In this document: positions 17,018 to 21,751 of the stretch, in pieces | Position numbering within the stretch: position 1 is the stretch's first letter | How the letters are laid out: every line of letters starts with the position of its first letter | IMG/VR virus record: IMGVR_UViG_3300030012_001143 | Span: 1-22,823 of that record | Origin: a virus | Direction: 5' to 3' (one strand) | Length of the DNA stretch: 22,823 bases | Notes under the pieces: model-generated | Database searches by the model: none | Told to the model about the DNA's origin: nothing | The model's input: only the letters and a program-made list of their open reading frames with translations | Translations under genes and position numbers: made by a program

Positions 17018-18256
17018 TTAATCGCCGCCAAAACCCTCGCCCGTTTCAGAATGCGTTGCTTTTTTGCCGGTGTAATCCTGCCAGCGATTAATAATTACAT
17101 CACAATATTTGGGGTCTAACTCAACTAATCTGGCGTGCCGAGACATACGCTCGCAAGCAATCAGTGTAGAGCCCGAACCACCGAAACAGTCGATGACCAC
17201 GTCCCCCGTCTTGCTACTGTTTTCTAACGCTCTTTCGATTAACTCTACAGGTTTTTGGGTCGGGTGAACGTAATTCTGGTGTGCCTCTCGGCGCATCTGC
17301 CATACATCAGACTCGGCTCTACTGCCGTACCAGCGCCCAGCACAGTAAAAAATAAACTCGTGCTGCGGGCGATACTCCTGATTGCCAAGGCCGATAGACT
17401 TTTTATCCCAGACGATGCACGCTTTAACTGAGCGCCCCAATTCCTCTAAAGCGGCCTCAAACTGTGCATAGGTTCGCCAAGTGAAACAGGCGTATAGCGG
17501 CACATCAGGCTTCGAATGCGTCATAGCAGTCGCTAGCGCGTCACGAACCAGCGATATGAGACTGTCGCCTTTCAGATCATCGTTAATGATCATCCCGTGA
17601 GCTTTGACTTTAGCGCCCTTTGTAGTGTCCCCCGCGGCGCGTCCACCGCCATAGCTCATACCGTATGGGGGGTCTGTAAAGATGAGGTCCGCGCGGCTAT
17701 CCATCATCCCGTCATAAGACGTTGTCGCCGTAGCATCACCGCAGACCAGCTTATGATCGCCAAGAATCCAAACGTCTCCCAGAACAGTTTCAGGATGTTC
17801 AGGAAGATGCGGCAACGCGTCTTCATCTGTTTTTCCGTCTACGATCTCAGGTTGTAATAACTGAGCAAGTTCATTTGTGTCAAAACCGATCAAATCAAGG
17901 TCAAAGTCTAGCTCTTGCAACCTCAAAAGCTCTGCGCTTAGAACTTCTGTATCCCAACCAGCATTTAGCGCCAGCTTGTTGTCCGCAATTACGTAGGCTT
18001 TTTTCTGCGCTTCTGATAAGCCGGTTAGTGTAATGGTTGGCACGGACGCAAGGCCGAGCCGTTTAGCAGCTAACACTCTGCCATGTCCCGCTATGATACT
18101 GCTATCTTCATCAATCAAAACGGGGTTAGTGAACCCAAACTCTGTGATGCTTGCCTCGATTTGAGCCACCTGGCTGTCGGAGTGCGTTCGCGAGTTTAGC
18201 GCGTAAGGTATTATTTTTTCGCTGCTTACGTACTCAATCTGTAAACTTCGATCCAT
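17018..18256 (-). CDS. ParB-domain / DNA methyltransferase fusion (412 aa)
   Basis: Residues 1-100 form a ParB/Srx-type N-terminal domain: L-N-SRTHSD at 20-27, VAQIEASITEFGF-x-NP near 30-45 and the box II motif IIAGHGR-x-x-A at 54-63. Residues 155-400 are an amino-methyltransferase: the catalytic DPPY at 195-198, HPTQKP at 331-336, the S-adenosylmethionine site DCFGGSGS at 356-363 and ELDPKY at 379-384. DPPY before FxGxG means a beta-class enzyme, which methylates adenine N6 or cytosine N4. No restriction endonuclease gene is adjacent, so it is probably an orphan modifier, for defence evasion or packaging/regulation marking. The start ATG at 18256 has a GGGGAAG ribosome site. The target sequence cannot be told from here. 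Confidence 0.93.
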   Translation of the reverse strand: MDRSLQIEYVSSEKIIPYALNSRTHSDSQVAQIEASITEFGFTNPVLIDEDSSIIAGHGRVLAAKRLGLASVPTITLTGLSEAQKKAYVIADNKLALNAGWDTEVLSAELLRLQELDFDLDLIGFDTNELAQLLQPEIVDGKTDEDALPHLPEHPETVLGDVWILGDHKLVCGDATATTSYDGMMDSRADLIFTDPPYGMSYGGGRAAGDTTKGAKVKAHGMIINDDLKGDSLISLVRDALATAMTHSKPDVPLYACFTWRTYAQFEAALEELGRSVKACIVWDKKSIGLGNQEYRPQHEFIFYCAGRWYGSRAESDVWQMRREAHQNYVHPTQKPVELIERALENSSKTGDVVIDCFGGSGSTLIACERMSRHARLVELDPKYCDVIINRWQDYTGKKATHSETGEGFGGD

Positions 18257-20353: not shown

Positions 20354-20720
20354 GCCGCACACCTTTTGAGTCTACATATTGGCCGTGTGCAGATAACCAT
20401 TTTTCTGCTTGCGTAGGGTTGTCCATAAAATCATGCGTCAACATGTCCAGCATTGTCCATTGCCTCACAGGGATCGGCTCGCCAGGCTTCAGCTCTGGTC
20501 TGAATTGCGCAGGACTCCCGCCCATTTTGTTAGCGCGACTCAACCACATGTTTACAAATCTGGACATCCCCCGGCGCGTCTTACGCTTGCTTGGATTCGC
20601 TTCCAGCCAACAATCCATTGCGTCTAACTCAGTGAAAACATCCACCTCTTTGTAGGCGTGCTGCCACTTCGCAAGCTGCTCGTCAGAGGGTTGCCAATCG
20701 TCACCTTGCTGGGTCTTCAT
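20343..20720 (-). CDS. Replication-associated hypothetical protein (125 aa)
   Basis: The motif W-x-PSDEQLAKW-x-x-AYKEVDV, then ELDAMDCWLEANPSKRKTRRGMSRFVNMWLSRA is common in phage and prophage proteins next to or fused with replication genes (primosome or replisome-organiser C-termini). There it lets a short helical domain contact partners or DNA. Here it stands alone, followed by FRPELKPGEPIPVRQWTMLD and a short tail. No ATPase or nuclease motif is present. The ATG overlaps the upstream stop by ATGA and the gene overlaps the NinB-like gene by 11 bp. A role in replication initiation is inferred from motif and context, not proved. Confidence 0.65.
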   Translation of the reverse strand: MKTQQGDDWQPSDEQLAKWQHAYKEVDVFTELDAMDCWLEANPSKRKTRRGMSRFVNMWLSRANKMGGSPAQFRPELKPGEPIPVRQWTMLDMLTHDFMDNPTQAEKWLSAHGQYVDSKGVRHVR

Positions 20721-21139
20721 TCGTAATCACTCCGCGTCAGCTCTGGAAGGTTAGTAGCACGTTGATCACTAGACGTCTGTTCCCGCGTTCTAAAAAAACC
20801 ATCGTGCTGTGGATACATCCTGTGAAAACGCCTAGCGTAATACGCTCTGTAATTATTGTTAAGCTTAAAAGGTTGTTTGGAAGGTATCGGCACAGGCTCG
20901 CCGCCGTTAATGTTGCCCGAGTGGTCTGTAGGCAAACTAGCAAATATTTTGCTCGACACTGTCGGGGTATTTACGTCTACCTCCCACCTGATGCGCTCGA
21001 AAATAGCATTGGCGCTATAGTGCTTAAAGCCAGCGTGTATCACGTTATTTGTAAACTTAACGAATAAGCGCCAAACTTCTGGGTGTTCATTGTGAAACGC
21101 CTGGCATTGCTCTGCCATTTCTTCCTGTCTAGTTTTCAT
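20717..21139 (-). CDS. Conserved phage protein of unknown function (140 aa)
   Basis: The first half reads AFHNEHPEVWRLFVKFTNNV and GFKHYSANAIFERIRWEV. The second half has FKLNNNYRAYYARRFHRMYP and DGFFRTREQ. The signature W-x-x-F...HY-x-x-x-x-I-x-x-RIRWE...K-x-NNNY-x-x-x-YAR-x-F...P...FF-x-x-R is widely seen in phages and prophages with no known activity; a compact helical domain is expected. I chose the ATG at 21139, preceded by AAGGGG 5 nt upstream. A GTG 15 codons earlier lacks a ribosome site. It is the first gene after the structured gap and probably opens the operon; any promoter must lie at 21140-21466. Confidence 0.72.
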   Translation of the reverse strand: MKTRQEEMAEQCQAFHNEHPEVWRLFVKFTNNVIHAGFKHYSANAIFERIRWEVDVNTPTVSSKIFASLPTDHSGNINGGEPVPIPSKQPFKLNNNYRAYYARRFHRMYPQHDGFFRTREQTSSDQRATNLPELTRSDYE

Positions 21140-21343
21140 TTTTTCCCCTTTTACTGCACAAGCTTCGCCCGTGCTGTTACACACTATACGTTACAAGATA
21201 ACGAGCTACGACTGCTGTATCGAATCTTGACGTCTATCCCGCCTACCTGCTCTCGGCATTCGGGGGCGTGCATAGAGAGGGTCAACTCTGCTCCGGGGTT
21301 ATTTGGTTCCCCGGCCTACCGCCCAACAGTCTCTGGGGATTGT

Positions 21344-21375
21344 TTGCGGTTTTGCTTAGGCTTCGATAAAATCGA
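21344..21375 (+). promoter_or_regulatory. Possible plus-strand promoter overlapped by a 13-bp dyad
   Basis: TTGCGG (21344-21349) and TAAAAT (21367-21372) are separated by 17 bp, which would start a plus-strand RNA near 21379. The -35 box matches the consensus at only half its positions; the -10 box matches at five of six. TCGATaaaATCGA (21363-21375), a perfect dyad, covers the -10 box and could be an operator for the XRE-like protein encoded at 21467-21751. This is weak, purely sequence-based evidence. Confidence 0.25.
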
Positions 21376-21408
21376 TGTGCCGTAGCTTCAGATCCCCTTT
21401 GAAGCGAT

Positions 21409-21463
21409 GGCACTCCTAAAAGTAGTACCCCCCCGAGTGCCGCAACACACCGGGGGGTTTTAA
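21409..21463 (+). terminator. Plus-strand intrinsic terminator that can fold as an H-type pseudoknot
   Basis: On the plus strand CCCCCCG (21429-21435) and CGGGGGG (21451-21457) form a 7-bp GC stem followed at once by TTTTAATTT. This is a good intrinsic terminator for plus-strand transcription. GGCACTC (21409-21415) can instead pair with GAGTGCC (21435-21441). With the C-run in its loop and the G-run after it, both stems can form together as an H-type pseudoknot with no bases between them. On the minus strand the stem is followed by GTACTACTTTT, a poorer terminator for the gene at 21467-21751. Confidence 0.55.
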
Positions 21464-21466
21464 TTT

Positions 21467-21751
21467 CTACACGTTCACTACAACCTGGTTCTCACTGACT
21501 GACACTACCGGCTGCTCCATTTGTTGTACAACGCTCGTTGCTTCCAGTCCTAAATCTAGAAACTCAGAAATCGTCATACCAAAAAATGTAGCAAGGCTCT
21601 CTAGTCGGCTCAACCTCATGTCGATCGCAGCTCGCCAACGTGTGACCTGAATTGGCGCAACGCCCATATGCTTCGCTAATTCTCGGTTGCTCACGCGGTT
21701 TTTAGCCTGCGCGTAACGCACACTTAAACCGGGGTTAAAACGGGATGTCAT
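21467..21751 (-). CDS. XRE/Cro-like helix-turn-helix regulator (94 aa)
   Basis: The DNA-binding unit is SVRYAQAKNRVSNRELAKHM followed by GVAPIQVTRWRAA and then MRLSRLESLATFFGMTISEFLDLGLE. The pattern VSNRELAKHMGV (helix 2), APIQVTRWR (recognition helix) and LESLATFFGMTISEFL (helices 4-5) is the Cro/C1/XRE fold. The 25-residue C-terminus is short and polar (VVQQMEQPVVSVSENQVVVN), with no cleavage or sensor domain, so it is more Cro-like than a full repressor. It overlaps the SSB gene by 17 bp. Its stop is next to the structured gap, a plausible site for its operators. It may regulate the switch from early to later genes. Confidence 0.8.
   Translation of the reverse strand: MTSRFNPGLSVRYAQAKNRVSNRELAKHMGVAPIQVTRWRAAIDMRLSRLESLATFFGMTISEFLDLGLEATSVVQQMEQPVVSVSENQVVVNV

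Follow-up and report, generated by a model that had tools for sequence, protein, structure and literature searches.

What is the role of two interlocking G+C-rich stems in a short intergenic region of an uncultured phage? The region belongs to the IMG/VR record IMGVR_UViG_3300030012_001143, whose 22,823 nt were analyzed as a whole and are called the window here. The window carries its main genes on the minus strand, and the stems sit in the gap between a Cro/C1-type HTH gene and a downstream gene with a likely start at 21139 (Table 1). A preliminary description had read them as an H-type pseudoknot overlapping a terminator. By inspection of the sequence, we found both stems and the T-run where they had been described. 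The second stem pairs CCCCCC (21429-21434) with GGGGGG (21452-21457), with an extra seventh C at 21428, and the crossing loops are indeed 13 nt (21416-21428) and 10 nt (21442-21451) long with zero bases between the arms. A perfect interlock of 7 + 6 bp with such geometry occurred in 0.65% of dinucleotide-shuffled 324-nt intergenic regions and in 12% of shuffled whole windows; the arrangement is notable locally, but only mildly so for a search of the whole window.

Table 1. Features of the locus, in window coordinates.
Feature	Position	Strand	Basis or remark
Downstream gene p20717 (phrog_13625), likely start 21139	20717..21139	-	other genes at its place in some relatives
Likely ribosome site of p20717, AAAAGGGG	21145..21152	-	sequence
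Conserved structured leader RNA core, helices P1-P4 and pseudoknot P5	21197..21335	-	covariation, covariance model
Predicted small-RNA promoter: -35 TTGCGG, 17 nt, -10 TAAAAT	21344..21372	+	-10 spacing in relatives
Predicted small RNA, about 88 nt, putative ends	21377..21464	+	order of promoter, hairpins and terminator shared with relatives
5' hairpin H-b	21377..21413	+	fold energy; own-arm pairing in relatives
Stem 1, 5' arm GGCACTC	21409-21415	+	overlaps 3' arm of H-b
Intrinsic terminator stem-loop C6...G6 (feature studied)	21428..21457	+	sequence, relatives
Stem 1, 3' arm GAGTGCC	21435-21441	+	within terminator loop; window clade only, mismatched in L026
T-run TTTTAATTT after terminator stem	21458-21466	+	sequence, relatives
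Cro/C1-type HTH gene, upstream neighbour	21467..21751	-	

Relatives were collected from IMG/VR by protein and motif searches, which yielded nine syntenic loci and then 72 stretches holding GAGCRGAGTTGACCCTCT. A core of about 140 nt is present in all of these stretches except L111 (Paenibacillus), the sole match in the genome collection, which was set aside as a chance match; the 20 loci returned by the pattern GTGTGCCATCGCTTCA were chance matches, too. Identity of the window to five more distant relatives is 74-81% in the core and 58-67% in the HTH, p20343 and ninB genes, and the gap is therefore under stronger constraint than its neighbours.

Some observations concern the neighbouring proteins themselves. 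The C-terminal 15 residues of the HTH protein (QPVVSVSENQVVVNV; window 21467-21511, minus strand) are invariant in three relatives, and an insertion is located directly ahead of them in L003. Elsewhere in the window, positions 17018-18256 (minus strand) encode a ParB-like domain fused to an N6/N4 DNA methylase.

Scanning both strands of 44 distinct related virus segments for terminators resulted in a plus-strand call in 40 and none in L054, L071, L098 and L106. About 38 of the calls are convincing, because those in L043 and L077 are odd, so that the terminator is doubtful or absent in these six relatives. The calls share the orientation and the build of an intrinsic terminator, a G+C-rich stem-loop followed by a T-run, and mostly fall just short of the stop codon of the HTH gene next to them. 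Outside the window clade (the window, L025 and L026) the loop is short, often a tetraloop. Furthermore, the stem of L026 and L034 has gained a T...A pair by insertion on both arms. Recurrence in most relatives and this two-sided gain bear out the earlier view of the second stem as a plus-strand terminator, and we consider this assignment very probable. With the relatives taken into account, the terminator part is far above chance.

The next question is what such a terminator would end. It is likely that it ends a plus-strand small RNA of about 88 nt, which would be made opposite the early operon, with the HTH regulator gene on one side and a structured leader RNA on the other. This RNA, which we infer to be transcribed, would consist of a C-rich-loop hairpin at its 5' end, followed by the C6-G6 stem and the T-run end. 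In the window, the hairpin H-b is predicted to form an outer stem GTGCC/GGCAC and an inner stem GCTTCAGA/TTTGAAGC with the loop UCCCC. C-rich hairpin loops such as CUCCCC, CUCCU and CCCUCC were found in most relatives, and many carry a second C-rich hairpin ahead of the terminator that is lost in the window clade. Judged by folds that start at the first hairpin and extend to the T-run, the RNA mostly measures 69-101 nt in relatives, with two long exceptions (L077 and L098). Comparison among relatives shows the order of promoter, hairpins and terminator in this predicted unit as well as its strand.

The -35 element of the window is poor (3/6 matches). The -10 hexamer lies 4-7 nt ahead of the first hairpin in 27 of the 34 relatives in which this hairpin could be placed, and at any other spacing in at most 2 relatives. 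In an arm-swap test, which like the -10 spacing is supportive but not blind because anchors and hairpin starts were picked by eye after viewing the sequences, the first hairpin formed 7.6 bp with its own arms versus 3.8 with swapped arms (16 window-type sequences) and the second 5.2 versus 3.5 (15 sequences); none of 5000 permutations did as well as own-arm pairing. Read on the plus strand, the hairpins contain G-U and A-C in a ratio of 19:7. The covariance-model search for known RNAs, which had been proposed earlier, returned no Rfam family above threshold: the small RNA did not reach a gathering threshold, and only weak, sub-threshold matches, mostly on the plus strand and including sRNAs that have C-rich loops or come from alphaproteobacteria, such as 6C, ar14 and sX13, fell on its segment.

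In many relatives, among them L043, L044, L046, L050, L056 and L064, the stretch from the terminator to the core carries a promoter-like pair on the gene strand (TTTACA or TTGCAC, 17 nt, TATCTT or TATCAT), which overlaps the small RNA gene; none was seen in the window clade.

Alternatively, the terminator might merely block antisense read-through into the HTH gene, with the preceding segment not being a functional small RNA. This explanation is unlikely: it fits a terminator that varies less than the hairpins and finishes close to the HTH stop, but not the -10 at near-fixed spacing, the C-rich loops and the self-complementary arms. As for the function of the preferred small RNA, its C-rich loops could pair with G-rich ribosome sites, the nearest being AAAAGGGG of the downstream gene, which is complementary to UCCCCUUU at 21393-21400 of the small RNA. 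In addition or instead, it may be antisense to any transcript that extends from the HTH gene into the leader. An action on G-rich ribosome sites is a tentative proposal, as the pairing with the target involves few bases and a G-rich sequence is usual for ribosome sites in any case.

In contrast to the terminator stem, the first of the two interlocked stems did not hold up when both were followed through the relatives. Stem 1 is possible only in the window, L025 and L026, which form a three-member clade, and in L026 it is broken by GCGTGCC in place of GAGTGCC. In all three, GGCAC pairs with GTGCC (21377-21381 in the window), and formation of stem 1 would require opening this GTGCC/GGCAC helix of the 5' hairpin, whose fold has -21.2 kcal/mol versus -11.4 kcal/mol for the stem-1 duplex. 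Judged from these relatives, the proposed pseudoknot is not conserved. It is very unlikely that an H-type pseudoknot toggles termination and read-through here: in spite of the perfect geometry with short loops, the stem-1 duplex of -11.4 kcal/mol and the five contiguous pairs retained in L026, stem 1 is missing beyond three close relatives, one of them mismatched, and draws on H-b bases kept in every clade member. Evidence supporting the suggested switch between termination and read-through was not found in the analysis. A role of the stem on the minus strand, either at the 3' end of the HTH message or within the leader RNA, is highly improbable, for although it also forms in the minus-strand fold and the genes and the leader sit on that strand, 42 of the 44 relatives have no minus-strand terminator call (the exceptions being L094, where the call sits upstream inside the HTH gene, and L099) and an A-run precedes the stem in most relatives.

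The gap also holds the leader RNA, in which the P4 loop pairs with a segment 3' of P1 to form the pseudoknot P5. Across 30 distinct sequences, 99.7% of the cells in P1-P4 and P5 are paired, compared to 34-44% in slid controls. Two-sided changes were observed at 19 of the 33 pairs, and in 150 cells versus 37 in shuffles. In a 54-sequence alignment read as minus-strand RNA, G-U outnumbers A-C by 214 to 12, which fixes the strand as minus and rules out a core on the plus strand. A coding sequence was rejected as well, since L043 has a stop in the shared frame and L057 a deletion of 2 nt that breaks it. This covariation support reaches the standard by which new RNA families are defined.

Using the covariance model, the window copy scored 136 bits and divergent members 93-95 bits. 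The RNA is present in about 70 virus contigs, and the model matched in all 20 virus records searched, with a single copy in 19. The record G003 has two copies (L057 and L096) 31,964 nt apart, probably in redundant contig ends, which would put the genome at about 32 kb. The copy at L079 3219-3396 (minus strand) carries an internal insertion, so that the model match spans 178 nt. Changes in the P3 loop correlate with the junction before the 3' arm of P1, possibly reflecting a tertiary contact.

An Rfam search at gathering and E-value thresholds gave no family for the leader. No match was obtained in the isolate phages searched, in plasmids or in a single pattern scan of the genome collection: BLAST of leader cores against phages and plasmids was empty, L037 gave only short matches to phages, located at its terminator end, and the covariance model found nothing in those isolate phages whose terminase or p20717 is nearest, an empty answer that is weak by itself, although this model matched in 20 of 20 virus records. 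We are highly confident that the leader represents a new RNA family. As the genes downstream of it vary between relatives, a riboswitch for one pathway is argued against.

With roughly even probability, the control locus consists of two back-to-back RNAs outside known families that jointly set early-operon expression, namely a new-class 139-nt pseudoknotted leader on the gene strand and, opposite to it, a small RNA with C-rich loops that ends at the terminator studied here. Together, the leader and the predicted small RNA provide a concrete candidate RNA control point in uncultured phages, which suggests that early regulation in these phages may rest on RNA.

By analogy, both RNAs resemble put, oop and sX13 in layout but are not members of these groups. 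The put RNAs of HK022 are about 70 nt long with two stem-loops (PMC9378689); the leader is likewise predicted to fold within an early phage transcript, but has a 139-nt multi-helix pseudoknotted fold. The oop RNA of lambda is transcribed leftward from pO, ends at the terminator tO and has an overlap of 52 bases with cII (PMC5869508). The predicted small RNA is similar by position only, being a short opposite-strand RNA that ends at a terminator beside a DNA-binding regulator gene, and nin-type genes lie downstream here, too. Unlike oop, it would stop a few nt outside the HTH gene with no reading-frame overlap, it has C-rich hairpin loops, and the regulator is of the Cro/C1 type. The Xanthomonas sRNA sX13 uses its three C-rich loops to repress mRNAs that have G-rich motifs close to their start codon (PMC3771888). 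In contrast to sX13, 6C (RF01066) and ar14 (RF02344), the predicted small RNA is phage-borne, combines one or two C-rich loops with a terminator and scores far below gathering in Rfam. It shares with them the stable hairpins with C-rich apical loops, which, as in other C-rich-loop sRNAs, would suit pairing with G-rich ribosome sites.
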